Shown here one piece after another: positions 1 through 64,000 of a stretch of 64,000 bases of DNA. Origin of the DNA: Planctomycetota bacterium (GTDB taxonomy: Bacteria > Planctomycetota > UBA1135). The notes under the pieces were generated by a model, which ran no database searches, was not told where the DNA came from, and saw only the letters and a program-made list of their open reading frames with translations. The DNA is taken from positions 1-64,000 of the forward strand of contig JAPKBM010000003.1 in the NCBI GenBank assembly GCA_026421205.1, read 5' to 3'. The stretch's first letter is position 1; every line of letters begins with the position of its first letter. The translations under genes were made by a program, and so were the position numbers.

Positions 1-176
1 TTTTCTGATGACACCGAGCACAGTTCTTCATTGACCTTGGCCATGTTTTTTTGAAGATCCGCAATCAGGGCTTCCTTGGCATCCACACGAGCGAAAAAGT
101 TTCCAATTTCTGGGACGGCGGTCAGGCCAGCGATGAGGCCGAGGGCGGAAAGAGTGGCGAGGTAGGAATTATTCAC
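1..176 (-). CDS. partial hypothetical protein, N-terminus with hydrophobic segment, runs off window edge
   Basis: GTG at 174-176 opens VNNSYLATLSALGLIAGLTAVPEIGNFFARVDAKEALIADLQKN... with no stop to base 1. Confidence 0.35.
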   Translation of the reverse strand, partial: MNNSYLATLSALGLIAGLTAVPEIGNFFARVDAKEALIADLQKNMAKVNEELCSVSSE

Positions 177-278
177 ATCTTTTCTTCGGCATTCCACCCC
201 GAACTCCTTGAGAGGGTAGAATGATTGCTTGCGGACGACCCGCGAAAAACCCAGAAAACCCCCATTAAACGCATAAAA

Positions 279-1523
279 ATGGTATTTTCCACTGTAGAAG
301 AGGCAGTTCAGGACATCCAAGATGGCCGCATGATTATCTTGGTCGACGATCCTCGTCGAGAGAATGAGGGGGATCTGGTCATGGCCGCGGAGGCCATTAC
401 TGCGGACGCCGTTAATTTCATGCGTAAAGAGGGAGGTGGACTCATTTGTCTCGCGATGAGCGGGGACATCTGTGACCAGTTGAATTTACGCCCGCAAGTC
501 ACGGAAAATACAGCACGCCTCGGGACCGCTTTTCTTGAGTCCATCGAAGCGCGGGAGGGGGTCACCACGGGGATCTCGACTGCCGACCGTGCGCATACCA
601 TCCAAACGGCGGTGAAAGCAGAGGCCAAACCTTTTGACTTGGCGCGTCCCGGACATGTTTTCCCTCTGAGGGCTCGCGATGGCGGAGTACTCGTTCGTCC
701 AGGCCAAACGGAAGGAAGCGTAGATTTGTCTCGATTGGCGGGCATGAGGCCGGCTGGCGTGATTTGCGAAATTATGAATGAGGACGGCACCATGGCAAGA
801 ATGCCGGATTTAGAGATTTACGCCGCCAAGCATCAACTGAAAATCCTGACTACGGAGGCACTGATTGAATACCGTCGGCGGAAGGAAAAGCTGGTCACGC
901 GGCGCGTTTCTGGTGTTCGTCTTCCTACTCAGTACGGGGAATTCAAAGTGCATCTTTATCATGCTTTGACGGACGACAAGGAGCATTTGGCCTTGACGTA
1001 CAACTGGAATCCATCTCCGGATGAATTGGCCGAGCCCTTCGCAAGAATTGAAGACTCTGTTGCGGTACGTGTGCATTCGGAATGCCTGACCGGAGACATC
1101 ATGGCTAGTCTTCGTTGTGACTGCGGGCCTCAGCTTCATGCGGCGATGGAGCAAATTAGCAAGGAAGGGAAAGGTGTGTTGCTGTATATACGCCAGGAAG
1201 GCCGAGGCATTGGGCTTGAGGCAAAATTACGGGCGTATCAGCTTCAGGATGAAGGCATGGATACGGTGCAGGCCAATGAAGAACTTGGTTTTCCACCGGA
1301 TATGCGGGAATATGGCGTGGGAGCCCAAATATTGCATGACTTAGGGGTGCGTACTATGAAGTTATTGACGAATAATCCGAAGAAATTGGCCGGCTTGAAA
1401 GGCTACGGCCTTAAAATTGACGAGCAAGTTCCGATTCAGATTGCCCCTCATGAACATAATGAGAACTATCTCCGAACGAAACGGGATAAACTCGGGCACT
1501 TTATGCCTCATCTGGACCATTGA
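279..1523 (+). CDS. ribBA: bifunctional 3,4-dihydroxy-2-butanone-4-phosphate synthase / GTP cyclohydrolase II
   Basis: RENEGDLVMAAE (DHBP synthase) and SECLTGDIMASLRCDCG, YIRQEGRGIGL (GCH II); ATG at 279 preferred over the TTG at 225. Confidence 0.95.
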   Translation: MVFSTVEEAVQDIQDGRMIILVDDPRRENEGDLVMAAEAITADAVNFMRKEGGGLICLAMSGDICDQLNLRPQVTENTARLGTAFLESIEAREGVTTGISTADRAHTIQTAVKAEAKPFDLARPGHVFPLRARDGGVLVRPGQTEGSVDLSRLAGMRPAGVICEIMNEDGTMARMPDLEIYAAKHQLKILTTEALIEYRRRKEKLVTRRVSGVRLPTQYGEFKVHLYHALTDDKEHLALTYNWNPSPDELAEPFARIEDSVAVRVHSECLTGDIMASLRCDCGPQLHAAMEQISKEGKGVLLYIRQEGRGIGLEAKLRAYQLQDEGMDTVQANEELGFPPDMREYGVGAQILHDLGVRTMKLLTNNPKKLAGLKGYGLKIDEQVPIQIAPHEHNENYLRTKRDKLGHFMPHLDH

Positions 1524-1565: not shown

Positions 1566-3398
1566 ATGCGCAGCCTCGGAATATCACTACGACCAGACGG
1601 TTTTGACTTTGCCCTGTGTGAGGGCAATGCAAAAAAGCATTCGCTCGCCGCTTCAGGTTCAGCAAACCTCTCTGAAAATCAAGCTACTCCCAAAGAACTT
1701 GGACAGCTTCTGGCCGCGGAATTGAAAAAACAAGGCACAGGGAAAATTGATCAAATCACATTGGTGTTGCCTTCTACGGGAACACTTTATCGGGAACTCA
1801 ACTTGCCCTTTTCGGAGCGCGCAAAGATTGAGCAAGTGCTGAAGTTTGAGGTGGAGTCAGAGCTCTACCACGTTGACATTGACGAAGTCATTTGTGATTT
1901 TTTAGAGCTTGACGATGAACGGGCTACGTCTACTTTGTTGGTTGCCGTTCAGCCCAAAAAGGGTGTTGGTCAAGCACTGGACGCTGCAAGCGGAGCCGGC
2001 TTAGATGTTTCTGTCGTTGACATGGACCTTTGCTCCATGGCTTCTTTGGCAACGCACTTGCCGTCGGCGGAAAACTTAGAGGACCCCGCAGGCTATCGGG
2101 CCGTATTGCATTTGGGGTCCATGACATCTTTGTTGTTGATTTATTCGGGAACCTCTTTGCGCACTGCACGTGCATTGCATTTAGGCTGGAGAGAACTTGC
2201 TCGTGATTTTGATGACTCTTCTCTGGAGGCCGCAGCAGAGGACATCCCGGAAATTGAAGCCGTTCCTATGGAAGGGACAGGAGAGGCGTCGGAGGTTGCG
2301 GAAGAAGCGCCGGCAGATGCCACGAGCGCGGAAGATGGAGACGAGGATGATGAAAAAACGACGGCTGATCCGGCACTAGGCCTTTTCGAAGCTGACGTGC
2401 GTTTGCCGTACACTTTGAGCTTGCAACAAGTTTTGGACGGCTCGGAGGACTCCGCAAAAGCAGCTTTCCTTCAGCGCATCGCTGGCGAAATTCATCGTAC
2501 TTTGCTTTCTGCGTCCATTCAGATTCAAGATGTTCACCTAACGGGCGCAGCTTTTCCGGGTTTGGCCGATGCCCTGACGAAGCGTTTGGATATTCCCGCC
2601 TCTTCATGGGATTTGTCCGCCGACGCCGTTGCATTTTCTGCATCGCTTCGCGGGCTTGATGTGAAGGGATGCTCTCCCATGAACATGCGGCAGGAGGAAT
2701 ATCGTTTTACTCAAGGTTTAGAGCGTATTGAGCGGCCTTTGACGTTTGCCTTGGTGGGGCTCATTGCATTTTTCTTGGTGGACGGCGTGAGTCATTTCCA
2801 GCAGGGTCGCGCGCGGATGAGAGACGCTGCAGCGTTGGATAACCCAGCGAGTTTGGTTTCTCTTGCCGTCGGTGAGATTGATCGTAATTTGAATAAGGAT
2901 TTGCCGGATAACCCACCGAAGGGTTGGCGTGTGAAAACAGATTTGAGTGCGTTTTCCCCAGAGCGTTACATGGCGGAATTGCGCTTGCGCGTGGCAAATT
3001 CAAAGCGCGCTCTTGATGAGGAAGTGGGAGCCGCTGGAGTGGCAATGCCGGAGTCTTCCTTGGATGCCTGGCGTTTGGTAATGAATGTGCTGGAAGAAGA
3101 GTTGGGTACGGACCAGGGACGTTGGATGGTCGAGAGAATTAAGTTGACGTCGGTCGACAAGAAGAGCAAAAAGTCATCGTCTCGTGTGGATGTTGACATC
3201 ACCCTTTCTGTCATGGGAGATGGATTGACGGCATCTCGGCGTATTGAATCTGTAAAAGCAGCTTTTAAACAAAAAGAATGGGTGACGGAGTCGCCCAGTA
3301 TTAAGGGCAGTTTGGAGCCCACGAAAAGCCAAGGTGGCATGACAGGTACAATTGCCATTCAAGTATCTACGCTGAAAGCAAAAGAGGTGGACGCATGA
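1566..3398 (+). CDS. GspL/PilM-like actin-fold assembly protein with acidic low-complexity insert and TM segment
   Basis: N-terminal PilM/GspL-like pattern (LPSTGTLYRELNLPFSERAKIEQVLKFEVESEL), TM near LTFALVGLIAFFLV, overlaps the next gene by 4 nt. Confidence 0.6.
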   Translation: MRSLGISLRPDGFDFALCEGNAKKHSLAASGSANLSENQATPKELGQLLAAELKKQGTGKIDQITLVLPSTGTLYRELNLPFSERAKIEQVLKFEVESELYHVDIDEVICDFLELDDERATSTLLVAVQPKKGVGQALDAASGAGLDVSVVDMDLCSMASLATHLPSAENLEDPAGYRAVLHLGSMTSLLLIYSGTSLRTARALHLGWRELARDFDDSSLEAAAEDIPEIEAVPMEGTGEASEVAEEAPADATSAEDGDEDDEKTTADPALGLFEADVRLPYTLSLQQVLDGSEDSAKAAFLQRIAGEIHRTLLSASIQIQDVHLTGAAFPGLADALTKRLDIPASSWDLSADAVAFSASLRGLDVKGCSPMNMRQEEYRFTQGLERIERPLTFALVGLIAFFLVDGVSHFQQGRARMRDAAALDNPASLVSLAVGEIDRNLNKDLPDNPPKGWRVKTDLSAFSPERYMAELRLRVANSKRALDEEVGAAGVAMPESSLDAWRLVMNVLEEELGTDQGRWMVERIKLTSVDKKSKKSSSRVDVDITLSVMGDGLTASRRIESVKAAFKQKEWVTESPSIKGSLEPTKSQGGMTGTIAIQVSTLKAKEVDA

Positions 3399-3919: not shown

Positions 3920-3927
3920 CCTCGGTG

Positions 3928-4950
3928 CTACATCCACTTTCTAATCCATCGTAAGGCCCCTTCGTTCCAAGGAACGCGGTGCCCCATGCCCGCTTGCGGC
4001 AGTTTGTCTTTGTTTTCTTTGTACCAATCCCAAGTGGCTATCAATGTGCTGGCATTGGAATGCTTTGGCGTCCAGCCCAGTTTTTCTAATTTGTCCACAT
4101 TGACAAAAGAGTCTTGATCTGCCGTGGCGTAAATCCACTTGTAAAGTGGAGAGCAATGAAAGGTATCAAGGATGGCTAATATCGTCTTCGCGGGAAGTGC
4201 CGGGACCGGAAATACGCGACTCTCTGTTTTTGCATGTTGAAAAAGCTGGGTGAGGTCTTCTTCAACCGTTCCAAATTCTTTTGCCCCTACATTGAATGTT
4301 TGGTTGGCGTCGGCGGGTGGAGCATTGAGTACCACGGAAACGGCTTCCACCAAATCCTCTACGGCTAAGAGTTGGTATCGATTCTTTCCGCTGCCAAGTA
4401 CGGGAATGCGTCGGCCTTCGGCAATCCAATCGTAGAGGATTTGAAAAACCCCAAGGCGTTCTGCGCCGAGAAAAGTCTTTGGCCGAAGGATGGTGATGCA
4501 TTGTCCTTGGGCTCGCGCCTCTTCGCAAAGTTGCTCTGCTTGAATTTTACTTTCTCCGTATGGACCGACGCCAATGAGTTTGTCGGACTCATGCAACGGG
4601 TGGTGATCTGGAATTCCGTAAACAGCCGTGGAGGAGATATGGACGACATGGGGAACCCCAACGTTTTTTGCCGCTTGTAGAACCGTGCGAGTTCCTTCAA
4701 AATTGACGCTCCGAATTTCTTTTGGCTTCCAAAGTGGTAAGCCGGCCGCAGCGTGAATGACGGCGTCACAATTTTCCATGGAGCGTTGAACTGCCGAAAG
4801 GTCACGTACGTCGGCGACGACGGTTTCTATGGTGTCGGGCCATTCTTCTGGTGCAAAAGGCGTGATGTCGAGGAGTCGTTTCTCCTGCGGGAGGCCGTGC
4901 GCCAAATGAAACCCAAGAAAGCCTGCCCCGCCCGTAATAAGGACTCGCAT
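3928..4950 (-). CDS. NAD-dependent epimerase/dehydratase (extended SDR)
   Basis: MRVLITGGAGFLGFHLAHGL Rossmann motif, SSTAVYG, YGESKIQAE; start placed at 4950. Confidence 0.88.
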   Translation of the reverse strand: MRVLITGGAGFLGFHLAHGLPQEKRLLDITPFAPEEWPDTIETVVADVRDLSAVQRSMENCDAVIHAAAGLPLWKPKEIRSVNFEGTRTVLQAAKNVGVPHVVHISSTAVYGIPDHHPLHESDKLIGVGPYGESKIQAEQLCEEARAQGQCITILRPKTFLGAERLGVFQILYDWIAEGRRIPVLGSGKNRYQLLAVEDLVEAVSVVLNAPPADANQTFNVGAKEFGTVEEDLTQLFQHAKTESRVFPVPALPAKTILAILDTFHCSPLYKWIYATADQDSFVNVDKLEKLGWTPKHSNASTLIATWDWYKENKDKLPQAGMGHRVPWNEGALRWIRKWM

Positions 4951-10750: not shown

Positions 10751-13700
10751 TTACAGGCGCACTGTGACGACAGCTTCGTCACCCAGCGTAAGATTCATGG
10801 GGAACTCCTTTGTGATTCCGTCGGCCGTCACTTCCAGGAGATAGCGACCTGGGGCAAAGGAGCCCACTCTTTGAACGCCATCGCCGCCAAACATGTTTCT
10901 GAAGCGAGCGGCAGCGCTGTCACTCTCGCTGACTAGGTTGCCATCGTAGTCTAAAAGAACAAGGGCAGCGTCAGCGATATTCTCTCCGTTGTTACCTAGT
11001 ACACGAACTTTCAAGGTGACGCCTGTGCTCATCACCAGTCGTATATTCGTGACTTCACCCATTTCCACGAAGACGGGGTCACTGGTCATGGGAGCCATGC
11101 CCCGTGATTCCACCTTCACCGTCCATTCTCCTGCTGGAAGTCCGCCCAGAGATCCATTCCCATTCCATCCCCACGTGGAATAATCATTTCCGGACATGTC
11201 AGCATAAGCAGGGACTCCTTTTACGCTAAACCCTTGTTTGATAGGGTCTCCATTGGAATCGACTACTTCCACGGAAATAGCGCCAGCCGATTCAAGATAG
11301 ATTACCCCGACATCTTTTATGCCATCTTCGGAAAGTGAAAATGTTTCCCCATGACTCTCGAGGTAAAACATAGACTCCGGCATGCCTCCCCGATTTTTTT
11401 GTCGAACCTCAACGCGATATTCCCCATGAGGCGTCCCTTCAAATTGGAAATTCCCCTTGGCATCCGTTTCAGTTTGCCGGCTGTTGGGGCCTTGCGAAGA
11501 TCGTGAGCCACCAAAAAGAGCAAAGCCTCCTCCGGGGGAAGCCTTCATATCTACTAGGTGTACGGGAACTCCTGAGACGGGTGCATCGGTTGCCATGGAT
11601 CGGACAAAGCCTTTCACCACGGACTCCGGAACGCGAACGTCTAGCCAATGAGTGGGGGTGTCTGGAACACTCATCTTTAAATTCCCTCCCCAATCATTGG
11701 ATTCGACGCGGAGTGTGTATTCACTGGGCGCCAAGCTCTTAAAGACGAAATTCCCTTCGGCATCGGATTTCACTGATGCCATACTGAAATTAAACATACC
11801 CGCGTTATTGTCTGCGGCGGTCAATTGCGCATAAGGAACAGGGTTTCCGTTTTTTGTGATTTGTCCAGACACTTCACAGCCACCGGAGGATGGGTCCAAT
11901 AATTCAATTTCAGTGACTTCATTTTCTTCGACGGTGGCGGTCACTAATCTTCCGCCCGTTAGGATGGATGCAAAATCACCCGAAAATAAAGAGTCGTCAT
12001 CTAAAGCTGCTGCAATCATGAAATAGGTCCCAGGGCGCATATTCTCAAAAGAAAATGCCCCTCGTTCATCAGTTCCGGTTTGACCGAAATCTTGTCCGGC
12101 CATGGTTAAGCAGGCCACCATGCGGCGAGCCAGAAGATTGCCATGACGGTCCACAACCGTTCCTTGAATACTTCCCCCACGACCGAGTTCTAACTCTAAG
12201 TCCTCACGGAGTTCACCCGCTTCTAACGGACTCCCCTTTTTAGAAAGCGCTGCGTAGCCGTCGGCGAGGACATGGATGTGGTCGGCCCCTTCTTCTAGCC
12301 CCTCTAATAAGAAGGTCCCATCTTCCGCAGTTTCCGTGACTGGGTTCCCTTCCCAGAATCCTTGCAGAAGCGTTCCAAGTCCAGATCCTTGGCCTACGCC
12401 ACCACTGACGGTTGCGCTGGCAATGGGTTGCCCTGTTTGTTTATCGATGACACGACCACCGAGTCCAGCCCCACGAACCATGGAAACGAGGAGTCCCGTG
12501 GCTTCTCCAGATTCCGGAATCGTGACTTCAAGAGTGTGGTTTGTGAGACCTTCCGCACGGAATACGAATGTCCAGGGGCCCGAGGAAAGGCCCTGCATGG
12601 AAAAACTTCCGTCGGAATTGTCAAACCATTTTGCGTTTCCGAGCTTTCGCATTGGCGTGGATGACGGCGTTAAAAGATTTTCCTGTTCCCCCAAGAATTC
12701 ACCTTGCGTCTCTTGCGAAGATAATGAGGTGGGCGCCTCCGTTTCCGTTGCTGCTACCGAATCGACCGAGGACGAAGCTCGCCCTCTATAGCCCATTTCT
12801 GCTTGGATTGTGAAAAAGGGGACAGGGTCTTCTCGGTCTGCTCGAACAACAATGCCTGAAGCTGTTCCAGGTCTATTGAGAAGCAGTACCGGTAGAGGAT
12901 TCTCTTCTAGATTCCCTAATTTGTAATCGCCATCGAGAAAACCAAGAGACGTAACACGGACTCGGGCATGGTTCCAACCTGGGAGAGAGAAGCGTCCTTG
13001 TTCGTCCGTGCGTGCCATGGTGTCGGCAGGAAGAAATTCAGGAATAATCTCTCGAGCTGCTTCCAAGAGAGGGTTCATGCTTTGGCGGCCGCGAGAACTC
13101 TTTTCTGTGTCGTTGGTCACCGGGTTGGGCAAGCTCATTAAAGCAACTTTCGCAAACGGAACTGGTTTTCCTTCCACGTCGATGACACGCCCTTGAATCA
13201 GCTGAGTTTCAGGAATGAGTAAATCGGGAGCACGAGAGGCAGAACCGGCAAGAATGGCTTGTCCTGGCTGCGAGCGCCCATCGATAGATTGGGCAATTGT
13301 GAGATAATTTCCTTTCGGGAGAAAAGGAAATATATAGTCTCCTTTCGAATTCGTCTGAGCTGTCCATGCCGGAAAATCTCGAAAGAGTGGAATAATCCGA
13401 CGGAGGTCAAGGGGGACTACGGCTACCGTGGCTTGTGAAATACCCTTTCCGCTTTCGGCGACGACTTTCCCCTGAAGGGAGCCACCGTCATCAAGGCGGA
13501 CTTCAATTTTCGCCTCTTGCTTTCCAGGCAAGGGTCCCAGCTCTTTGACCCCAGGTTGGGTGGAAGAGGCGAACCCACTTAAGCTCAATACCATTCCGGC
13601 CGGAACAGCTTCCAAGTGAAATGCACCAGCGGCGTCGGCGAAAACACGCTCCACAAAGAATTCTCGATTCCGAAATGCCGCGATGAGGTATTTGATTCCT

Positions 13701-14369: not shown

Positions 14370-15410
14370 TTAAACCTCTAAGAGCGGCAATTGCTGGCTC
14401 TGTTTCTTAGATATTTCCCTCGCAACTTTCCCGGCTAGACTGACGTAAGCCTTTGCTGCGGCGGAATCTGGATGACTCAGCACCACGGGCGTGCCAGAGT
14501 CGCCGGCCTGGCGAACGTCGGGATGCAAGGGAACCGTTCCAAGGTATGGGAGGTCATAAGCTTCGGCTGTCTTTTTCCCACCACCGGTCCCAAAAATATC
14601 ACCGGACATATTTTCTACCACGCCAAGAATAGGGCACTTTACTTTTTTACACATGCCAATCGCTCGTCGAACATCGGTGAGAGAAACTTCGGGGGGCATG
14701 GTGACGACCACTGCGCCACTTAAGGGCACGAGTTGTGCCAAGGAAATTTGCGCATCTCCTGTGCCCGGAGGCATGTCCACGATTAAGTAATCTAAGCTCC
14801 CCCAATGCACTTCTTTCAGAAATTGCTCCAGTGCTTTGTGCAACATGGGGCCCCGCCACATCACAGGTTGACCGTCTTCAACCAGATTTCCAACGGAGAT
14901 CGTTTTTACTCCGTGGGCCGTCATCGGAACAATTTGTCCGTCGGCGCCTCCCGTCGGCTTTCCTTGAATCCCCATCATCACGGGAATGTTTGGCCCATAA
15001 ACATCGGCATCTAAGATTCCAACTTTCGCTCCAGCTTGTGATAAGGCGACGGCCAAGTTCACCGTGGTTGTCGTTTTTCCGACGCCGCCTTTGCCTGAAG
15101 TCACGGCAAGCACATGCCCGATGTTTCCTCCCAAATCGTTGCCCTCCGGAAGTGAGCTTTTCACTTTTGCTGTGAGATTGACCGTTACTTGTTCCGCACC
15201 TTCTAGCGCCGCAACCGCATCATGGGCTTGCTGCTTGAGCTCTTCCTTCACGGGGCAGGCCGGGGTCGTGAGTTCCAGCGTGAATTTGACCCCACCACCG
15301 CAAACGGTAAGATCCTGAACAAAGCCTAGAGCGACAATGTCCTGATGGAGATCGGGGTCTTGAACGGCTTTGAGCGCGTCCAGCACAGTTTCCTTGGTGA
15401 GTTCTGTCAT
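14370..15410 (-). CDS. mrp: Mrp/ApbC-family Fe-S carrier ATPase with N-terminal MIP18/DUF59 domain
   Basis: [55 protein letters not shown]. Confidence 0.95.
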
Positions 15411-22450: not shown

Positions 22451-24925
<2,475 letters not shown>

Positions 24926-28211: not shown

Positions 28212-28255
28212 AAAAGGAGTATATACTTTAAAAGTCCTCAGACTAGTAAAACTCC

Positions 28256-28411
28256 ATGACGAAATCCTTTTTGCTACTTTTTTGCTTGGCTCTCCTTCCT
28301 TCTTGCTCTGGGGGGAGTGATGGAGAGGATGTCCAAATTACCCCCACTGACGAAGGGGGCCGAGGCCATGAAGGCGGTGTCGTCATGGTCGACGACTCTA
28401 CAGACGAGTAG
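28256..28411 (+). CDS. 51-aa candidate small lipoprotein (absent from supplied ORF track)
   Basis: MTKSFLLLFCLALLPSCSGGSDGEDVQITPTDEGGRGHEGGVVMVDDSTDE; hydrophobic leader plus LPSC lipobox. Confidence 0.55.
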   Translation: MTKSFLLLFCLALLPSCSGGSDGEDVQITPTDEGGRGHEGGVVMVDDSTDE

Positions 28412-29837: not shown

Positions 29838-29854
29838 GGATACCCTAGGAAGCC

Positions 29855-31123: not shown

Positions 31124-31127
31124 GAAT

Positions 31128-50400: not shown

Positions 50401-50879
50401 AGTTGGGTTATATTTTCTAATTCATGCGGCTTTGCTTGTGCCAGCATGTCTTGAATCATGCCTACGAGTCCAAGGCGTCGGCCATCTTCAACGGAGTACA
50501 AGTGATCCACGCCATATTCATGAAGCGCCGCAATTTCTTCATCCGTGATGGTGCCACCACCACCGCCAAAAACTTTGATGTGCTCACAGCCTTTTTCCCT
50601 GAGGAGCTCCACCATGTATTGGAAAAATTCCATATGCCCTCCTTGGTAAGAGGAGATGGCAATGGCGTGAGCATCTTCTTGAATGGCGGCCTCCACAATT
50701 TCTTCCACGGACCGGTTATGTCCAAGATGGATGACTTCGGCGCCTTCTCGTTGCAGAATTCGACGCATGATGTTGATGGCGGCGTCGTGGCCGTCAAACA
50801 AAGAGGCCGCAGTGACGAAGCGGAGATTGTCTTGTGCGCTGGAGTCTTGAGCGTGCGTGGGGGCAGGGGAGGTTTTCAT
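47493..50879 (-). CDS. icmF: fused isobutyryl-CoA-type mutase (B12 domain + MeaB-like G domain + mutase)
   Basis: [17 protein letters not shown]12 domain; [18 protein letters not shown]-loop; [32 protein letters not shown]. Confidence 0.93.
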
Positions 50880-51271
50880 GGTGATGGGGGGGCGTGTTGC
50901 TTTTGGGCTATGCGTGCTTGGTAGTCCTTGAGCTCTTGGTCTAGCTGGTGCAATTCTTGAATGCGTGTGGTGACTTCGGTCCGGCGTGTTTGGAGGAGTT
51001 GATGAAGGTCGTCGAGCAGAGCTGGTGTTTGCCCGCGGTCAAAGGCCTGGTTGAGCCGGCCGATTTCTTCCAGGGTTAAGCCAAGATGCTTGAGGCGTTG
51101 GATGAACCGAAGTCGCTCTAGGGCATCTGGCCCGTAAAGCCGACGTCCTCCGTTTCCGCGTTCCTCTGCCTTCAAGAGGCCGCGCTCCCCGTAGTAGCGG
51201 ATGGTGCGACTACTCATACCAGCCTCTTTGGCAAGAGCACTGATGTCGAGCAAGGAGGCCAGAGGTTGCAT
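50876..51271 (-). CDS. MerR-family transcriptional regulator
   Basis: [28 protein letters not shown] overlap with icmF. Confidence 0.93.
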
Positions 51272-51298: not shown

Positions 51299-51946
51299 TT
51301 ACGTCAACTGTTTGTCGCAGGCCCGTTTCAGAGGGCATTCTTCACATTTAGCTATTCGTGCCGTACAGAAAGCTCTTCCGTGGTCAATGAGGGCATGGCT
51401 CAGCCAGGTCCAGCGACTTTTGGGAAAGAGATCCATGAGTACTTTCTCTACCTTTTCCGGCTGTTGGGCTGTGGTCAGCCCCAATCTACGGGCAATACGC
51501 CCCACATGCGTGTCCACCACCACGCCGACGGGTTTCCGGAAGGCCTGCCCAAGAACGCAGTTTGCAGTCTTTCGCGCCACGCCAGCCAGTTGGAGTAATT
51601 CCTCCATGGTCTCCGGAACCTCACCCCGATGGTCCTTCATGAGTGTCTTGGCCATTGCACTGAGGTGCTTGGTTTTATTGTTGAAGAAATTGATGGAGGC
51701 AATGAGGGGGCGGATTTCCTCAAGGGAAGCGCTGGCTAGGGATTGCGCGTCAGGAAAATGATGAAAGAGGGCTGGCGTGACCAAATTGACACGCTTGTCC
51801 GTGCATTGCGCCGACAAGATGGTGGCTACAAGGAGTTGAAAGGGGTTTTCCCAGTGAAGGGCCGTTTCACTGCTTATGTAGTGGCGGAGCAAGATACGCT
51901 GAATTCCTTTTGCTCGTTCCGACAGAGTTTTCACAGATTTTGGCAT
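51299..51946 (-). CDS. nth: endonuclease III
   Basis: ATILSAQCTDKRVN, VDTHVGRIARRLGL, CTARIAKCEECPLKRAC Fe-S motif. Confidence 0.95.
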   Translation of the reverse strand: MPKSVKTLSERAKGIQRILLRHYISSETALHWENPFQLLVATILSAQCTDKRVNLVTPALFHHFPDAQSLASASLEEIRPLIASINFFNNKTKHLSAMAKTLMKDHRGEVPETMEELLQLAGVARKTANCVLGQAFRKPVGVVVDTHVGRIARRLGLTTAQQPEKVEKVLMDLFPKSRWTWLSHALIDHGRAFCTARIAKCEECPLKRACDKQLT

Positions 51947-54621: not shown

Positions 54622-55935
54622 CTAGAAAATGGGGGGAAGGCCCACTGCATGGCGTTCAAACCCGTGTTCCTTTAACGCGGGAATGGACAAAATGTTGCGT
54701 CCATCAAAGAAGAGTTTTCGCTTCATTGACGCAGCCAATCGAGCAAAGTCAGGGTTGCGGTATTCGTTCCACTCAGTGCACAAAATGACCGCATCGGTGC
54801 CGTCGGCCACTTCATACATGTTCTCTAAATAGGCATCAATGTTACTTCCAATGATCTCCTGACCCGTTTTGAGGGCTTCCGGGTCACAGGCTTTGATTGT
54901 GGCGCCTCGTACTTTGAGCTCCCGTGCAATGGTGATGGCCGGCGCTTCTCGCATGTCGTCCGTCTTCGGCTTGAAGGCAAGGCCCCAAAGTCCAAAGGTT
55001 CGACCAGAAAGGTTTTCGCCGAAGATGTCTACAACCTTTTCAACCATGAGGCCTTTTTGGTTTTCATTCACTGCTTCGACTGCTTCCAATATTTGGAAGG
55101 TATAGCCATTTTCCTTTGCTGTATGCATGATGGCTTTAACGTCTTTAGGGAAGCAAGATCCGCCATAACCGATGCCCGGGTAGAGAAAAGGCCTGCCGAT
55201 GCGTGCGTCTGAGCCAATCCCGCGGCGGACATTGGAGACGTCGGCATTCACTTTGTCACAAATCCGTGCAATTTCATTCATGAAAGAAATTCGGGTCGCC
55301 AACATGGCGTTAGCTGCATACTTGGTCATTTCTGCACTTGTGGGGTCCATGCGAATAATGGGCGCACCATTTCGAACGAAAGGTGCATACAGTTGATCCA
55401 TGAGATTGAAGTCTTCCTCCAGCTCTGCGCCGATGACGACGCGGTCCGGTTTGAGGAAATCATCAATGGCCGCACCCTCTTTTAGGAATTCTGGATTTGA
55501 GCAAACCGAAATGTCATGTTCACTGGCTGCATTGGCAATTTCTTTGACTTTGGCAGCGGTGCCGACGGGGACGGTGGACTTATCCACAATCAGTTTGGGC
55601 CCGTTTGCGTGGCGCCCGATGTCTTCCGCAACTTTAAAGACAGCGGTTAAGTCGGCACCACCATCTTTTCCAGGTGGGGTTCCTACAGCAATGAAAACGA
55701 TGCGTGCTGCGTGAACGGCTTCCGCCAGATTCGTGGTGAATTGCAGTCGCCCGTCTTTGTGGTTGGATAAAACCAATTCCGAGAGCCCCGGTTCAAAGAT
55801 AGGAATTTCTCCTTGCTTGAGGCGGCTGATTTTTTCTTCATCGATATCAACGCATTCCACTTGATTGCCCATTTCGGCAAAGCAAGTTCCAGCGACAAGA
55901 CCAACGTACCCAGTTCCGACGACGGCAATTTTCAT
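54622..55935 (-). CDS. ugd: UDP-glucose 6-dehydrogenase
   Basis: MKIAVVGTGYVGLVAGTCFAEMG; GYGGSCFPKDVKA; GLWGLAFKPKTDDMREAP. Confidence 0.95.
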   Translation of the reverse strand: MKIAVVGTGYVGLVAGTCFAEMGNQVECVDIDEEKISRLKQGEIPIFEPGLSELVLSNHKDGRLQFTTNLAEAVHAARIVFIAVGTPPGKDGGADLTAVFKVAEDIGRHANGPKLIVDKSTVPVGTAAKVKEIANAASEHDISVCSNPEFLKEGAAIDDFLKPDRVVIGAELEEDFNLMDQLYAPFVRNGAPIIRMDPTSAEMTKYAANAMLATRISFMNEIARICDKVNADVSNVRRGIGSDARIGRPFLYPGIGYGGSCFPKDVKAIMHTAKENGYTFQILEAVEAVNENQKGLMVEKVVDIFGENLSGRTFGLWGLAFKPKTDDMREAPAITIARELKVRGATIKACDPEALKTGQEIIGSNIDAYLENMYEVADGTDAVILCTEWNEYRNPDFARLAASMKRKLFFDGRNILSIPALKEHGFERHAVGLPPIF

Positions 55936-55996: not shown

Positions 55997-57442
55997 CTAA
56001 CCATCTATATACCCCAATTCTGCAAGCTTGCGCTTCATTTCTGGATCCTCGGTCATGGGGGCAGCCTGCCCCGCAGTGGTTTCGGCGGCCCGGAATGCGG
56101 CACTGGCTTTGCTGGATACCGCAGTCTCATTGGGGGAACTCATGTATGCCGGGTCATTTTCCTCCGGGTCTTTCGTCAAATCCCACGCGGAAAACGTTTG
56201 CTGACGTGTATCCCAAAGCACCTTATTTTGGGCCTCTCGCCAGCCTCGGAGATCTAATTTTTGGCCGGGGTGAAGGAGGTCCATCTGGATTTCATGAGAA
56301 CCACCGGACAAAAGGAGGGGGAGGGCACTGCGCCCGCTACGCTCCGTCCAAGCCGTAAGTTCAGCAAGATCCAAAAGGGTGGGGCCGACGTCATAGTTGG
56401 CCACTGAACCGGCCACACGCTGCGCCGGTTCCAAGAGGCCCGGCGCGCGCAAGACCATGGGAACATGCGTTACTTCTTCATAAAGCGTGCGATGGTGATA
56501 ATACTGACCATGTTCGCCGAAGTGATCCCCATGATCGGAAACAATGGCGATGATGACGTCATTATCTAAGCCCCATTGAACAAGTTGATCAAAGAGGCGC
56601 GCGATTTGATCATCCGTGTATCGAATTTCCGCATTGTAGAGTGCCTTCAAACGAAGGATTTCTTCGGGGGTGTACTCCCGGGGAAGCCGCGGGGTGAACG
56701 TCGCTCCTAGTTTTAGGTCGGCGTCGGAGAAGTCAGGGAGGAAGAGGCGGTTGTAATCATCGGGTGCCTGGTAGTTGTAGTGTGGGTCCCAGAAATGCAG
56801 GAAGAGAAAAAATGGGGTGTCTTTGCGATCATCTTTTTCTAGCCATTGCAAAGCATGGTCGACGACGTGGGGCGCATTTTCTTTGTCCGTGTCTGCGACA
56901 TCGTGAAATTCTTTGATTTCTGGCGACCCCACATTCATCATGGCATCGGTGGCTTCTTTAGAATTTAAATAGGGAGCTGCCGCAACATAAGTATCAAATC
57001 CTGGATAGTAGCCCCAACTTGGATGGAGGAAGGGCGCACTGTAAAACGCGGCAGTTTGATAACCAGCGCTTTTAAACTTTCCTGCAATATTTTCCGTGTC
57101 CGCAGGTAAACGAAAGCGTCGTGCACGCACGCCATGTTCCATGGGATGCATCGCCGTCAAAATACTGATGTGGCTGGGTAAAGTCCAAGGTGCGGATGCC
57201 GAGCAGTTTTCAAAGACCACGCCTTCATCGGCCATTTTTTGTAGAAAAGGCGTCGTCTTCTCCTGCGTAAACTGTGCCGTATGCCCGTAAGGCGTGCAAT
57301 GGTCCGCCCTCAGCGAGTCAATGGAAATCAAAATGACCGGCCGTTGGTTCCCAGCATTGGCTTGCCCGCAAGATAGCGCGCCAATCAAAAGAACGGTGCC
57401 AACACATCGCCGTGTCCAATGGAGTAGAGGTTTAGTGGTCAT
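55997..57442 (-). CDS. sulfatase-family hydrolase, secreted
   Basis: VILISIDSLRADHCTPYGH; SAPWTLPSHISILT; VSDHGDHFGEHGQYYHH. Confidence 0.85.
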   Translation of the reverse strand: MTTKPLLHWTRRCVGTVLLIGALSCGQANAGNQRPVILISIDSLRADHCTPYGHTAQFTQEKTTPFLQKMADEGVVFENCSASAPWTLPSHISILTAMHPMEHGVRARRFRLPADTENIAGKFKSAGYQTAAFYSAPFLHPSWGYYPGFDTYVAAAPYLNSKEATDAMMNVGSPEIKEFHDVADTDKENAPHVVDHALQWLEKDDRKDTPFFLFLHFWDPHYNYQAPDDYNRLFLPDFSDADLKLGATFTPRLPREYTPEEILRLKALYNAEIRYTDDQIARLFDQLVQWGLDNDVIIAIVSDHGDHFGEHGQYYHHRTLYEEVTHVPMVLRAPGLLEPAQRVAGSVANYDVGPTLLDLAELTAWTERSGRSALPLLLSGGSHEIQMDLLHPGQKLDLRGWREAQNKVLWDTRQQTFSAWDLTKDPEENDPAYMSSPNETAVSSKASAAFRAAETTAGQAAPMTEDPEMKRKLAELGYIDG

Positions 57443-58937
57443 TTTTAACAGTAAATCCTAGCCCAACGAGCATGGCCGCAGGGCCAATAAGATGGAGCAT
57501 GAGTCGGTCGGGGATTCCTTTTTCTAAGAGGAGAGGGAGGTACCAAGGAGTAACCAGAAGGATCAACGCATAAAGGCTAAGTCCACCAACAACAAGAAGC
57601 GCCAGCCAGGTTTGTTCTTTATTCTGTTTCCACAGGCGCCAGGGGAGTGCAAAAAAAACAAGAATCCAAAGCAGTCCCCAACTGAAGATGTCGAAAAACT
57701 CACGTACGAAGGCTTGCAATAATTGCATGGGGCGCGCGGGAATTTCAGCCAATAATTCTTGCGCCGTCACTTGACCCGCAATCACCTTGGGGGAAAGTTC
57801 CACAAGCTCTTCTCCACCAGTAAGAAAGTGTGTGATGCGTTCTACGGAGATTTGACTGCTATAGTTTTCGTCAATCGCGGGGAGTTCAGCGCGCAAAAGA
57901 AGCCAAGGGAGAATGCTCAAGATGCTGACGCCAATGGCAAGCCAACTGACACCCAGGACTTTTCCTCTATCGCGTTTGGGGCATAGAGTTCCTGCCAATA
58001 TTCCAGCAAGAATGAAAACGCCAAGCAAGGCGAGGCCCTCATTTTTCATCATGACCATTCCGGCAAGAGCCAGGCCGCTCAAAACCCCAAGGCGTCGGCA
58101 ATGCTCCCAACGTGCGCGCAGAAAAAGCGCACATGCCAGCGTCAACATGGCGGCCGTGGGCAAGTCCGCGCCGGCACCGAGGGTCATTGTGTTTCCAAGA
58201 CCGGCCTCTTGCAGGTCAGAGAATCCGTCGGCGAACAGGTGGCGAAAATAGAGGATGGGGGTGCACGCGGCGAGGAGTGCTCCATGCCCAGCGGCTTTTA
58301 GGGAATAGCGTCGGAGGCCGAAGAAAACTGCGCCGGGGAGGCAGAGTGCCCAAAGCGCAAGAGGCCATTGGACCCAGCGATCACTCCAGGTTGCGCCGAA
58401 AGACGAAAATGCCTCAAGAATGGGGATGCCTAGGGGGTAATTGGGGTGAGTCACCATGCGCCCGAATTCCATGGGCATGCCGTCCTGGGTCATCATCCCC
58501 GTGAGGGCTTCCACTTGTGGCGAGCCTTCAAAGTGCAGAACTTTCCCCTTGTAGGCAAAATGCAAAAGAGGGTCAAACTCGTTGATAGGCAGGGAGAGGG
58601 TGACCGCAAGGGATAATACGCCCAAAGTGATAAGCAAGATTTTCTGCCATGGGAGGAGTCCGGTTGTTGTGTACGCCGACGTGCTCTCCCATTGCCTCCG
58701 GGAGGAAACCCAAAGCACAACCAAGCTACCACTTCCAAGGGACACGAATGCAAATTGAATGGGGATGCCGACGGCCAAAAATGCCGTGCCCACGACGGTC
58801 CAGACGGCGGCGCCCAAAAGAAAGCTGACGGAGAATGATTCCCATCGAGAACGCGGTGCTGTGGAGGTCAAGGGGAGGAGTGCTTCTCCACAAGCCCAAA
58901 GAAGCAAAACCAAACTGAGCCCCATGAAGAAGTTCAT
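57432..58937 (-). CDS. polytopic membrane protein, possible GT-C-like glycosyltransferase
   Basis: Multiple TM helices; INEFDPLLHFAYKGKVLHFEG loop; overlaps sulfatase start. Confidence 0.6.
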   Translation of the reverse strand: MNFFMGLSLVLLLWACGEALLPLTSTAPRSRWESFSVSFLLGAAVWTVVGTAFLAVGIPIQFAFVSLGSGSLVVLWVSSRRQWESTSAYTTTGLLPWQKILLITLGVLSLAVTLSLPINEFDPLLHFAYKGKVLHFEGSPQVEALTGMMTQDGMPMEFGRMVTHPNYPLGIPILEAFSSFGATWSDRWVQWPLALWALCLPGAVFFGLRRYSLKAAGHGALLAACTPILYFRHLFADGFSDLQEAGLGNTMTLGAGADLPTAAMLTLACALFLRARWEHCRRLGVLSGLALAGMVMMKNEGLALLGVFILAGILAGTLCPKRDRGKVLGVSWLAIGVSILSILPWLLLRAELPAIDENYSSQISVERITHFLTGGEELVELSPKVIAGQVTAQELLAEIPARPMQLLQAFVREFFDIFSWGLLWILVFFALPWRLWKQNKEQTWLALLVVGGLSLYALILLVTPWYLPLLLEKGIPDRLMLHLIGPAAMLVGLGFTVKNDH

Positions 58938-59971
58938 CGCAGGTCCTCCACAGGAATGCACTCCCAGTCCGTGGCGCGGAAATCAGAATTGTGCGAGAAA
59001 AAAAGGATGTGCGTGATGGATTTATTTTGCACAAAGTTGCGTTCGGCTTCGTGCAATAACCGGGCTGGGCCGATGCCAGGCATCCCGCTGAAATCTCGCA
59101 GGTTTGGCCCCCAACGTTGAAGGCGTTTCCAAGGTTTCTTTTTGTTGTAACTTAAAACCCAGTCTCGGTATTGACCGCTTGTGCCACTGGCCAGATCAGG
59201 CCTCCAAAGGTACAAATGGCGCGGGGCAAGTTGATAGTTCAAATGCAGGAACCAACGAGCGCGACCGCTGGTGGTGGCCAGGCGGGAAACGGGAAGAAGA
59301 AGGAGGCGGGCGTCGGCTGGAAGCTTTTCCTGGAGGTGCTCGACGTAGGTTTGGAAGTCCCCATCCAACCAAGGGGGGCCGGCAGGTTTTGCAAAAGAGA
59401 GATAGAACAGCCCAGCGGCGTCGGCGGCGAGAGAGTTGAGAAACTCACGGCCGTCAAGAACCATGCGTCCTTGGAGGGCGGCGGCCAAATCGGTCATGGC
59501 AACGGCGGAGTACATGAGGCGCTCTGTAATGAGGGCGACCGCATGGGCTCCTTGTGCGGCCTGAAGGGGGTTGTTGAAAATAGAAACTGCGTCACCTAAG
59601 AGGCGGCGCGCGTCTTCTTGATGAGGGGTCGCCACGCGGATTTGAATGCCTTCTTCCTGCCACAGGCGGGCCATGATGATGCCCGGGTCTTGTTCGGAAA
59701 GAGCGGTGGCTTCAGGGTTTTCGGCTAATCCCCAGAGCGTGAGGACCCTGCCTTGCACACCGACCGGCGTTTGCTTCCACGTTTCCACCAAATATTCCAC
59801 GGCGTCGGCTGGCTCAAAGGTGGCTCGGGCGTAAAGATCGCGGTTTGCCGTGAAGCCTTGGCCCGCAGCATTCAAGAAAGCCATGACAAGGTAAAGGATC
59901 ACGCCGACCGCGCCCAATAGATGGATGCGGAAGAGGCCGTTGCGCACGGGGGTGAGTAGAGAAATCCCCAT
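58934..59971 (-). CDS. membrane-anchored protein containing UDP-glucose dehydrogenase C-terminal-like domain
   Basis: N-terminal TM; GRVLTLWGLAENPEATALSEQDPGIIMARLWQEEGIQIRVATPHQEDARRLLG...VLDGREFLNS aligns by eye to Ugd C-terminal domain. Confidence 0.6.
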   Translation of the reverse strand: MGISLLTPVRNGLFRIHLLGAVGVILYLVMAFLNAAGQGFTANRDLYARATFEPADAVEYLVETWKQTPVGVQGRVLTLWGLAENPEATALSEQDPGIIMARLWQEEGIQIRVATPHQEDARRLLGDAVSIFNNPLQAAQGAHAVALITERLMYSAVAMTDLAAALQGRMVLDGREFLNSLAADAAGLFYLSFAKPAGPPWLDGDFQTYVEHLQEKLPADARLLLLPVSRLATTSGRARWFLHLNYQLAPRHLYLWRPDLASGTSGQYRDWVLSYNKKKPWKRLQRWGPNLRDFSGMPGIGPARLLHEAERNFVQNKSITHILFFSHNSDFRATDWECIPVEDLR

Positions 59972-59996: not shown

Positions 59997-61655
59997 ATGG
60001 AGACCAAGGCGCCCCTTCGCCCTCGTTTCATCCTCCTCGCTCTCGGGTTGGGTGCCGTCCCCGGTTTGGCCTCCGCCGCGCTTGGCCAGGACATTTTGCA
60101 ACCATGGGATCTTGGATTGAGTGCCGTCATTTTGTTGGCCGCACTTCTCTTGGCATCCAACCGTTTATCGCCCGCGTTTCAGGCAGCCGAAATCCGCATC
60201 CCGTTTTTTCTGGTGTTTATCATCGCGCTTGTCCCGACGGCTTTTTTAGATTTAGTTTCCATTGCAACGGTGACAAATGATGAACGCGCCTACTTAATGC
60301 AAGCTGAATTATTCACCGACGGTGAACTGTCGGAGCCTTTGGCTTCTTCTCCAGCATCGGCTTGGGCACTCAATCGCCGTCAAGTATTAGAAATACCACC
60401 AAGGAAAACGGCCGAAGGCTTTCAGGCAGGGAAGCGCTATCCGAAATATTCCCCTGGCACAGGGCTAGGGCTCGTCCCTGGGACATTCCTTGGCTGGCCT
60501 TGGCTTTCCGTGGCTTTGATGGCAGTTTTTGACCTGTTGCTTTTAGCAGCAATCGGCAAAAAACTTTCCTTAGGTCATCGCACGCTAGCTCCACTTCTTC
60601 TTGCTACTTCGCCTTTTTTCCTTTTAGTGCACACTTCGTTTCAGTCCGAAGTCTTCACTCTTCCAGCGGCACTTTTGGGCTGGCTTGCTTTACTGCACAC
60701 ACGGTCGCCCCATGCATCCAAGGTCTGGCCACTTCTTTTGGGTGCCAGTGCGGGTTGGATTTTCCTTTGCCGTCCACTGACGGGTGTACTTTTTGCGTTT
60801 GCGGCTTTGCCAGGTTTATGGGTGGGTCCACAGGCTTCCAAATTACGGGGAACTGCGGGCGCTATTTTGGGTGGCCTTCCTTTTCTGGCACTTGCACTGG
60901 CTTACAACGTCGCGCAAACAGGAGATTTTTTCTTAAGCCCCTATGAGGTGTATGCGGAAATTCACGGCCCTTGGAATGCCGACGGAACCCCCAGGGACGT
61001 TTACGGAAATGGAGATGTTTGGGGAGGACTCCTTCGGCAAATGGGTCGTTGGTCGGTGACATTCTTTAGCATGCTTGGCGGAATTGGACTTGGTCTTTGG
61101 GGCCTTTGGCGACATCGCCGCGTTGACGGTGGAAGTGGTTTTTCTTTTGCACTTCTTCTTCCGGTGGCCTATGCGTTTCATTGGTATCCCGGTCATTGGG
61201 GCTACTTGGGGCCACTTTATGCCTTTGAGAGTTTGGGCGTACTCCTTGTGGGTGCCTTATTGCTTTTGGCCGACGCTCCCCCTGTGTGGCGTCGATCTTT
61301 GATTTTAACTTCCGTTTCTTTTGGTTTGATTTTCTTTAATCTGCGCCTTCCGGCGTTGACCATGCAGCAGATGCATCGCTCTGCTCCAGAACGCGCTGCG
61401 AAAGTAGCAGAGACAGGATCTGTCGTCTTACTTCCTTGGGTGAATCAACCGGCACTCAGAGAAAAAGGGGTGAAACTGTCCACCCCAGACCGGCCTCCTT
61501 TTTCCGACCAACGTGTGGTTATTATTCGAGAGAATCCAACTCCGGAAGCAACCCGCAAGGCTTTGGTGGAACTTGGCTTGCAGGACCGAAAGGTCTACCG
61601 ATTTGTGCCAGATAGCACGTCGTCAGGGAGTTTGACGGAAATTGACATTCCTTGA
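59997..61655 (+). CDS. polytopic membrane protein, GT39-like glycosyltransferase candidate
   Basis: Many TM segments; TNDERAYLMQAELF early acidic loop; PKYSPGTGLGLVPG. Confidence 0.65.
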   Translation: METKAPLRPRFILLALGLGAVPGLASAALGQDILQPWDLGLSAVILLAALLLASNRLSPAFQAAEIRIPFFLVFIIALVPTAFLDLVSIATVTNDERAYLMQAELFTDGELSEPLASSPASAWALNRRQVLEIPPRKTAEGFQAGKRYPKYSPGTGLGLVPGTFLGWPWLSVALMAVFDLLLLAAIGKKLSLGHRTLAPLLLATSPFFLLVHTSFQSEVFTLPAALLGWLALLHTRSPHASKVWPLLLGASAGWIFLCRPLTGVLFAFAALPGLWVGPQASKLRGTAGAILGGLPFLALALAYNVAQTGDFFLSPYEVYAEIHGPWNADGTPRDVYGNGDVWGGLLRQMGRWSVTFFSMLGGIGLGLWGLWRHRRVDGGSGFSFALLLPVAYAFHWYPGHWGYLGPLYAFESLGVLLVGALLLLADAPPVWRRSLILTSVSFGLIFFNLRLPALTMQQMHRSAPERAAKVAETGSVVLLPWVNQPALREKGVKLSTPDRPPFSDQRVVIIRENPTPEATRKALVELGLQDRKVYRFVPDSTSSGSLTEIDIP

Positions 61656-62491
61656 ACCGAAATTTTATATTCGCCGGCAGGGAGATTTGGGAAAAAAAGT
61701 GTGCCCATTTCATCGACCCAGTGATCCGGCATTTCCGCGGGTGGATGAGTTCGGCGTATGGACGCCAATTCATTGGCCGGTAAATCCCTGAGCGAGAGTG
61801 GCCAGCTTTCAGTGGGGATGGTGATGGACGTACCCATTTTTTCAAGGTCCGCCGTGCCAATTTCCCAGGCATCGGCCGACGGGAACCCAGGCGCGTAAAC
61901 GGCAAGGTTGAGTGGGATTTCTGGAAGTGTTTTGAAAACAGCAACTCCATTTTGATTCGTCCACGCCATCCAAGGGGGTCCATCGGCCTTTGCGGTGAGA
62001 AGGGCATCCTGAACAGGAGGGACCGTTTGGACAGTGACGTTCCTTTTGCGTAATGTGAGCGGATATTGGGGTAGGGCTTTCTCTTTGAGTGCCGTGAACT
62101 CCAGACCACCTAAAGGGAAGGCGTCGGCTGGGCCGAAATGGAGGAGTTCGTGGTGTGAGAGAGACGCCATCAAGTGAACGGGGCCGTGGGCTTGAATTAA
62201 AAATGTTGCTTTGCCATGAACATCTACTGCTGCGCGGGCGAGTTCGGGTTGAAGGAGAACAGCGACGGCGTCAGAGGCGGGATGACCGAAAGAGTCTTTT
62301 AAGGAAACCGTGATTATTTGAGGTGGCGAATGAGGAGGCTGAAGAAGTACGGAACTCATGGGCACGGAATCATTTTGTGTCACTTCTGGTTGAGTTGTCA
62401 AAAAATGACCAAGAAGGACTGCGATGGCAACGCCTATGAGGGGATAAAGTAGCCAGCGCCAGGGCCCTTGAATTCTTGGAACAAGGCTCAT
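61595..62491 (-). CDS. membrane-anchored regulatory-like beta-sandwich protein
   Basis: N-terminal TM (WLLYPLIGVAIAVLLGHFL); GKATFLIQAHG.. / GEYKISVQGMSISVKLP; overlaps neighbour by 4 nt. Confidence 0.6.
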   Translation of the reverse strand: MSLVPRIQGPWRWLLYPLIGVAIAVLLGHFLTTQPEVTQNDSVPMSSVLLQPPHSPPQIITVSLKDSFGHPASDAVAVLLQPELARAAVDVHGKATFLIQAHGPVHLMASLSHHELLHFGPADAFPLGGLEFTALKEKALPQYPLTLRKRNVTVQTVPPVQDALLTAKADGPPWMAWTNQNGVAVFKTLPEIPLNLAVYAPGFPSADAWEIGTADLEKMGTSITIPTESWPLSLRDLPANELASIRRTHPPAEMPDHWVDEMGTLFFPNLPAGEYKISVQGMSISVKLPDDVLSGTNR

Positions 62492-64000
62492 GGTTTTTCT
62501 TTTTTAGACTCTTTCTTTTTCTCTTTAGATTCCTTTTTCTCCCGCCTCTGCAAGTAAAATGTTTCCTCTAGGGTTGAATCTGCGGTGATTTGAATGGGGA
62601 TGTTTCGCAGATTCCAATTCCCCGAGTCAAGCCGCAAAGTCCAAAGGCCTGCAACTACGTTGTCAAAATGAAAGCTCCCATCTCTTTTGATGGAAGTCCA
62701 GAAGGAATCAAGCCCTTCCGAGGTGCTCGCCGGCATTAGGCGAGCATATCCTCTTGCCGGTTGATCTCCTTTTTCTGTGGCGCGCAAGGAAAAGCCACGA
62801 AATTCTCCCGTTTGAATGGAGAAATCCACGATTTGTTCTTCACCCGGAGGCAAATCAATCTGAACGCGAGACAAGCCTTTTGGAGGTTCATTCTTGCGGC
62901 TCCCAAAGCCATGGCCTGGGTAGGAATTACTTTGAGTAAGGATTGCCCAGTATTCTCCAGACAGTACCCCAGATAATTGATACCGGCCTTGGTAGTCGGT
63001 CGTTGTGCTTCGGAACCCGCCGAGGTCGAGTCTTATGTTGTTGATGGAAAGATCTTCGTCACGAAATCCAGATTCTTCTGGAAATAAACTAATGCCAAAA
63101 TTGGGGGCGGGCAATCCATTTTGAAAGACGACACCTTGAAGCGACCCTCGACCTTCAAGCATGAGCTCTAGGATGATATTTTGAGATTCACCTTCAGAAA
63201 GTTCCACCGTTTGAACTGGAGTCAAGCTTTCTTGGGAAGGAAAAGACTGGCCAAAAACGTGTTCGGTGACCGCATCCACTTCGCGAGTACGGATTTCATA
63301 GTCAGCGGGAGGGAGGTTTTGAAAGAGGAATCGACCATTTCCTTGGACGCGCACTTCTACTTCATCCATTTCCGATGCTTGGATATAAACGCGTAATCCA
63401 TGAAATGCGTTGATGTTCCCGAGGACTTCTCCTTCAATGGTTGCTGGATGAAAGAGTTGGATATCCGTTTCCCATGCTATGCCGTCGGAAGTTTCGAAGT
63501 CCTCACTTTTTCCGGGTGCAGTTCCTTTGGCATATGCTTCTACACGCCAGAGTGCAGAAGGAGCTCCTTGAAAGGTGAAGCTTCCATCGGCCGACGTCCT
63601 TGTGCTTTGATAGATTTTCCCTGGAGCTTGCCATGTGATTTGACTCGTTGTTCCGTTTCCGCCGGGACGACGATAAAGTCGGCGTAAATGAACTTGCGCT
63701 GCGGTTGCGGGCGAACCATCGGGAAGGAGCACTTTCCCCGAAATTCCGCCGGCAACATCGAGATGAAGATTGATTTCATTGGGAATACGGCTGGGCCCTC
63801 GGTCCATGCGAAAGCTACTGGAAAACGTTGCGCCGTGGTCTGGGTGCCAGGCGGAAAGCCGGAAGCGAGAATCTCCTTTTCCCGTCATGATGGGAAGCAA
63901 AGAATAAGATCCGTCTTTCGACGTTGAGACGGTTACGAGAGGTTCGGACTGTCGCGGGTCAGCCCGACGGTCTCTGGATTGCTCCAGGCTGAATAAACCA
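62488..64000 (-). CDS. carboxypeptidase-regulatory-like repeat protein, partial (extends past window)
   Basis: Frame stays open to base 64000 (GLFSLEQSRDRRADPRQSEPLVTVSTSKDGSYSLLPIMTG...); repeated GxVLxDGSPATxAQV / TSADGSFTFQGAP. Confidence 0.75.
   Translation of the reverse strand, partial: GLFSLEQSRDRRADPRQSEPLVTVSTSKDGSYSLLPIMTGKGDSRFRLSAWHPDHGATFSSSFRMDRGPSRIPNEINLHLDVAGGISGKVLLPDGSPATAAQVHLRRLYRRPGGNGTTSQITWQAPGKIYQSTRTSADGSFTFQGAPSALWRVEAYAKGTAPGKSEDFETSDGIAWETDIQLFHPATIEGEVLGNINAFHGLRVYIQASEMDEVEVRVQGNGRFLFQNLPPADYEIRTREVDAVTEHVFGQSFPSQESLTPVQTVELSEGESQNIILELMLEGRGSLQGVVFQNGLPAPNFGISLFPEESGFRDEDLSINNIRLDLGGFRSTTTDYQGRYQLSGVLSGEYWAILTQSNSYPGHGFGSRKNEPPKGLSRVQIDLPPGEEQIVDFSIQTGEFRGFSLRATEKGDQPARGYARLMPASTSEGLDSFWTSIKRDGSFHFDNVVAGLWTLRLDSGNWNLRNIPIQITADSTLEETFYLQRREKKESKEKKKESKKEKP

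Follow-up and report, generated by a model that had tools for sequence, protein, structure and literature searches.

The 64,000 nucleotides at positions 1-64,000 of contig JAPKBM010000003.1, from an uncultured member of the Planctomycetota and referred to throughout as the window, contain a single seven-base word, CGTCGGC (GCCGACG on the opposite strand), in such numbers as to raise the question of what could have driven so short a sequence to this frequency. An exact count finds 34 copies on the forward strand and 28 on the reverse (Table 1), making it the commonest 7-mer of the window and confirming the total of about 62 given in a first-pass annotation; of the 25 coordinates listed there, 24 are exact and one, 10821, should read 10819. 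Base composition alone predicts about 9 copies (worked by hand from the base counts), close to the earlier figure of about 10, while the GC content, estimated then as about 53%, was measured at 51.9%. The sister words are indeed several-fold rarer, with CGTCGGA, CGTCGGT and CGTCGGG occurring 20, 14 and 10 times and AGTCGGC, GGTCGGC and TGTCGGC 11, 13 and 13 times. The answer favoured here, at somewhat less than an even chance, is that the word belongs to a motif resembling the DNA uptake sequences (DUS) of Neisseriaceae that has accumulated by biased uptake of DNA.

The iteration is a property of the whole genome, whose assembly comprises 2.15 Mb in 96 contigs (88% complete, 1.2% contaminated). 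CGTCGGC occurs 988 times on one strand and 986 times on the other, a total of 1,974 copies or 0.92 per kb, consistent with the density of about one per kb claimed for the window, and the reversed control word reaches 264 (134 and 130). This total is genome-wide; the more detailed statistics below derive from 618-994 kb of the genome. A search with gyrA, which lies within the window, gives the Planctomycetota isolate NORP40 as the nearest named relative (75% identity), with several of the next matches also from Planctomycetota, and a plasmid search with the same gene returned nothing closer.

Codon usage does not account for the excess. When synonymous codons are shuffled inside each gene of the window, 19.8 ± 3.6 copies result (maximum 30 in 200 shuffles) against 60 observed, and across 618 kb the 562 copies found in genes compare with 149 expected under this shuffle and 132 under a stricter null that also keeps the dinucleotides at codon junctions. 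The excess over the codon- and junction-preserving shuffle is thus about 4-fold overall (4.1- to 4.6-fold) and is spread over all six reading frames, where observed and expected counts of 237/70, 46/8, 36/10, 48/13, 76/13 and 119/19 amount to a 3- to 6-fold enrichment in each. Non-coding DNA shows the same, with 37 copies against 6.3 expected, an approximately 6-fold excess that again makes CGTCGGC the top 7-mer. The word is likewise the strongest 7-mer outlier under the codon null and under Markov models of orders 1, 2, 3 and 4. In a control of matched size, the best word of Escherichia coli is 1.92-fold enriched (z 10), compared with 4.63-fold (z 27) for CGTCGGC; in E. coli it is CGCCAGC/GCTGGCG that leads when this null is applied. 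A drive at the amino-acid level was also rejected, the dipeptides encoded by the motif not being raised relative to those of relatives. Since every one of the six frames shows the excess, and non-coding DNA does too, the signal is a feature of the DNA rather than of RNA, protein or a codon pair, and the earlier assertion that one favoured codon pair does not explain all the copies holds. Neither of the outcomes that the first-pass annotation had named as fatal to its claim, a codon-preserving shuffle reproducing the count or a genome-wide count near expectation, was found, and under the Markov null that it had proposed the word ranks first.

The 7-mer that had been taken for the motif, although truly iterated, is only the core of a longer one. 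The full element is a graded, asymmetric sequence of about 14 bp, g-G-a-n-G-v-CGTCGGC-g-n-a, in which G at -4 (249 observed, 167 expected from the coding null), G at -1 (325, 178), G at 8 (214, 154) and A at 10 (176, 135) are preferred; outside approximately -5 to +10 most positions show no preference, although position 14 carries a weaker signal. The extended form GANGNCGTCGGC occurs 57 times where 3.4 are expected. Within the core, substitutions at positions 4-6 abolish the excess, while some at positions 2, 3 and 7 retain approximately 1.7- to 2.4-fold enrichment. Expectation-maximisation over the whole sample yields the same picture, and serves as a description only because the number of sites was still rising when the procedure was stopped. 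A palindromic reading was rejected: the left flank lacks a mirrored C-C and does not mirror the right half, and the abutting dyad GCCGACGTCGGC, with 9 occurrences against 0.7 expected in 994 kb, exceeds expectation but is rare. The word itself is asymmetric, in keeping with its description as non-palindromic.

Copies are used almost equally on the two strands, as had been noted in the window, and the genome-wide totals are closer still. Relative to replication, 471 copies read with the leading strand and 434 with the lagging strand (52% leading, 994 kb), a skew under the median for balanced words, and the excess is 3.9-fold on the leading and 4.3-fold on the lagging strand. A value of 56% leading in 618 kb had looked suggestive of polarity and shrank to 52% in the larger sample. 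Counts from gene to gene are close to Poisson around the coding expectation (variance/mean 1.07), the distances between copies are almost random apart from a few long gaps (coefficient of variation 1.28), and no clear dependence on gene conservation, gene length or gene position was seen.

Within the family, enrichment over the codon and junction null is 4.1-fold here, 2.9-fold in G011, 2.5 in G003, 2.4 in G025, 1.9 in G024 and 1.8 in G001, several of the samples from relatives being small (20-90 kb). CGTCGGC ranks as the first or second word in G025 and G011, and the preferences for G at -4 and -1 recur in the pooled carriers of genus g4. G006, G009 and G012 show no enrichment, nor do other sampled families of the order clearly show it; the motif thus recurs in five family members, but is lineage-specific and patchy. 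The gyrA tree separates the carriers into two clusters, one made up of this genome and G011 and the other of G001 and part of genus g4, and non-carriers are interspersed; repeated gain or loss of the motif is therefore probable. The conservation of sites between related genomes, which the first-pass annotation had suggested examining, was assessed at peptide-identical, motif-compatible positions in G011, G025 and G024: where this genome has the motif, 17 of 35 such positions in those carriers have it too, against 25 of 119 where this genome lacks it (P = 0.002), a difference that may be due in part to common ancestry and common codon bias. The top word of G011 itself is CGACGTC (121 observed, 24 expected), which is offset from CGTCGGC and may represent a dialect or else a separate motif.

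With its strict centre and weaker flanks, its use in both orientations, its density of about one copy per kb, its variants between lineages and its lack of polarity, the motif has the look of an uptake sequence, a resemblance that the first-pass annotation had drawn from density. Neisseria meningitidis carries approximately 1,900 DUS in 2.2-2.3 Mb (PMC3630211), and Haemophilus influenzae 1,465 copies of the 9-bp core of its uptake signal sequence (USS), in which the central GCGG was measured to be crucial and the flanks weaker (PMC7811141). Shared with DUS and USS are the genome-wide excess beyond codon usage, the lack of polarity inside and outside genes, the strict centre with graded flanks, and the encoded machinery, since genes for ComEC, DprA and type IV pilus ATPases are present in this genome. 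Under the mechanism proposed, a DNA-binding component of the uptake machinery, built from a type IV pilus and ComEC, would prefer the motif in double-stranded DNA, fragments bearing it would be taken up and recombined more often, and copies would build up by point mutation on both strands, wherever the protein code permits, to about one per kb. Competence of the cells, the reading of the motif by a receptor and its maintenance through biased uptake are inferred. Several observations weigh against this reading. ComEC, DprA and PilT occur in nearly all genomes of the family, those without the motif included, and their presence does not therefore discriminate; a pattern search for a prepilin or ComP-like receptor found none in 994 kb, less than half of the genome; inverted pairs at short spacing are not frequent, whereas Neisseria DUS form such pairs at terminators; and the core is shorter and its 4-fold excess over the coding null modest. 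As a separate observation, the window encodes a weakly PilM/GspL-like protein at 1566-3398 with a small companion open reading frame (3395-3919); the two may be components of a pilus or of a type II secretion system.

Other processes could produce a motif of this kind, and the unlikely one that ranks highest among them is weak selection for the binding site of an abundant nucleoid, chromosome-organising or other genome-wide DNA-binding protein. A graded motif on both strands, distributed evenly over genes and non-coding DNA, would suit such a protein, as would the sharing of orthologous sites above expectation, confounded as it is by ancestry and codon bias. No candidate protein was found, however, approximately 2,000 sites would each require selection above drift, and a core function of the chromosome would not be expected to be so patchy within one family. 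Neighbour-dependent mutation bias or a long-range codon-context preference, with no dedicated reader, is judged rather unlikely: all genomes have over-represented words, of which the 1.9-fold E. coli word is an example, and the relatives other than G011, at 1.8- to 2.5-fold, do not go far beyond it if at all, but the 4.1- to 4.6-fold excess here extends to six frames and non-coding DNA, and the signal at -4 and -1, outside the core, is not one that nearest-neighbour mutation bias produces.

Quite improbable is an origin and upkeep of the motif through a DNA methyltransferase together with biased mismatch repair, in the manner of the cyanobacterial highly iterated palindrome HIP1. The first-pass annotation had raised this option from iteration and density, in which the two are alike, and the patchy spread within a phylum is also comparable; HIP1 and the alternate HIPs track methyltransferases (PMC4390886). 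Yet HIPs are palindromic and this motif is asymmetric and graded, and the link to methylation is weakened by the lack of a convincing match for the three methyltransferase families searched in this genome (88% complete), in which PF00145 (C5 methylase) and PF02384 were not found and PF01555 appears only below the cut-off. An enzyme of the last family, about 300 amino acids long, is found in most family genomes and is lacking or very weak here, in the strongest carrier, and in genus g10; across the 26 family genomes searched none of the three families tracks the motif. Deamination variants, moreover, are not specially depleted, and the one-step variant CATCGGC stands 1.7-fold over expectation. 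A methylation-linked process acting through a methyltransferase outside these families is possible. The least probable explanation is a Chi-like recombination hotspot read by AddAB: known Chi sites are short and iterated, and AddAB-like PDDEXK proteins are present in every genome of the family, but a polarity of 52:48, with the early skew not sustained and the excess alike on both strands, contrasts with the 43:13 that this approach yields for Chi in E. coli.

The preferred reading of the motif as uptake-related has a further, bolder form that is held a little more tentatively, namely that this uncultured planctomycetotal lineage has a third family of DNA uptake sequences, independently evolved and divided into dialects. 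Strong preference for an uptake motif is named only for Pasteurellaceae and Neisseriaceae (PMC7811141), both proteobacterial, in the literature covered, where a search returned no useful match for the word itself and uptake sequences were not noticed to have been reported from Planctomycetes. If true, this would be a third case of strong uptake preference, in a distant phylum, offering an independent test of how such motifs originate; uncultured Planctomycetota would then be expected to exchange genes routinely and with a bias towards their own DNA. Should another protein read it, a graded motif of approximately 2,000 copies that comes and goes among genera would still be a sharp tool with which comparative genomics could identify the reader.

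Table 1. Copies of CGTCGGC and extended motif matches in the window, with uptake-related genes elsewhere in the genome
Feature	Position	Strand	Basis
Motif copy CGTCGGC	873..879	+	exact word count
Motif copy	2062..2068	+	exact word count
Motif copy (GCCGACG on +)	2619..2625	-	exact word count
Extended match GNNGNCGTCGGC; core 4308-4314	4303..4314	+	word count + extended-motif scan
Motif copy	4409..4415	+	exact word count
Motif copy	4809..4815	+	exact word count
Motif copy (earlier 10821)	10819..10825	+	exact word count
Extended match; core 12259-12265	12254..12265	+	word count + extended-motif scan
Motif copy	13633..13639	+	exact word count
Motif copy	13932..13938	-	exact word count
Motif copy	14939..14945	+	exact word count
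Motif copy	14952..14958	+	exact word count
Motif copy	15542..15548	-	exact word count
Motif copy	16750..16756	-	exact word count
Motif copy	16900..16906	+	exact word count
Motif copy	19001..19007	-	exact word count
Motif copy, within gyrA	24434..24440	-	exact word count
Motif copy	25364..25370	-	exact word count
Motif copy	26118..26124	-	exact word count
Motif copy	31469..31475	+	exact word count
Extended match GANGNCGTCGGC; core 32540-32546	32535..32546	+	word count + extended-motif scan
Motif copy	32716..32722	-	exact word count
Motif copy	33322..33328	-	exact word count
Motif copy	33956..33962	-	exact word count
Motif copy	34663..34669	+	exact word count
Extended match; core 34696-34702	34691..34702	+	word count + extended-motif scan
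Motif copy	35651..35657	-	exact word count
Motif copy	36391..36397	-	exact word count
Motif copy	36600..36606	+	exact word count
Motif copy	37120..37126	-	exact word count
Motif copy	38085..38091	+	exact word count
Motif copy	39965..39971	+	exact word count
Motif copy	40260..40266	+	exact word count
Motif copy	40418..40424	-	exact word count
Motif copy	40565..40571	-	exact word count
Motif copy	40964..40970	-	exact word count
Motif copy	42205..42211	+	exact word count
Motif copy	42384..42390	-	exact word count
Motif copy	42494..42500	+	exact word count
Motif copy	42729..42735	+	exact word count
Motif copy	43125..43131	+	exact word count
Motif copy	46664..46670	+	exact word count
Extended match GANGNCGTCGGC; core 50018-50024	50013..50024	+	word count + extended-motif scan
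Motif copy	50476..50482	+	exact word count
Extended match GANGNCGTCGGC on -; core 51139-51145	51139..51150	-	word count + extended-motif scan
Motif copy	51524..51530	-	exact word count
Extended match; core 54801-54807	54796..54807	+	word count + extended-motif scan
Extended match; core 55239-55245	55234..55245	+	word count + extended-motif scan
Motif copy	55561..55567	-	exact word count
Motif copy	56384..56390	-	exact word count
Motif copy	58093..58099	+	exact word count
Motif copy	58226..58232	+	exact word count
Motif copy	58675..58681	-	exact word count
Motif copy	58767..58773	-	exact word count
Extended match; core 59311-59317	59306..59317	+	word count + extended-motif scan
Motif copy	59419..59425	+	exact word count
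Motif copy	59803..59809	+	exact word count
Motif copy	60978..60984	-	exact word count
Motif copy	61269..61275	-	exact word count
Motif copy, outside called genes	61875..61881	-	exact word count + gene calls
Extended match GANGNCGTCGGC; core 62122-62128; outside called genes	62117..62128	+	word count, gene calls, extended-motif scan
Motif copy	63590..63596	-	exact word count
ComEC	contig C92		search of family genomes
DprA (window's own contig)	C79:92488-93108		search of family genomes
PilC-PilB-PilT-PilB-type cluster	C90:72990-78512		search of family genomes (PilT) + flanking genes

Some other contents of the window merit mention. The region 26076-34422 encodes a caspase-like protein (26076-28211, weak NCBIfam match) and, not far from it, a protein kinase that has TPR-like repeats (32191-34422), and includes a motif-free gap of 5.3 kb (26118-31469). 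An open reading frame of 1341 amino acids at 43464-47489 has no Pfam or NCBIfam match, and a protein of 1188 amino acids (10751-14317), with several weak matches to unrelated dioxygenase and S-layer-type families, likely consists of the repeated beta-domains of a surface protein.

Among the systems already described, the DUS that Neisseriaceae recognise through the minor pilin ComP are likewise asymmetric top words found on both strands at about one copy per kb, common in genes and divided into dialects; the present motif differs in phylum and sequence, in its shorter, more graded core, in lacking frequent inverted pairs, and in that no receptor was found by pattern in the 994 kb sampled. The USS of Pasteurellaceae also combines a strict 4-bp centre with weaker flanks, varies between lineages and spreads by point mutation, but its flanks are AT-rich tracts, whereas those of CGTCGGC are single G or A preferences. 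HIP1 is as highly iterated and as patchy within its phylum, yet palindromic and tied to methyltransferases. Chi sites, read by RecBCD or AddAB, are short, iterated, non-palindromic and over-represented, and AddAB-like genes are present here, but CGTCGGC has no leading-strand bias; and the FtsK-orienting polar sequences (KOPS), short, iterated and non-palindromic as well, point strongly towards the terminus, a polarity that CGTCGGC does not share.

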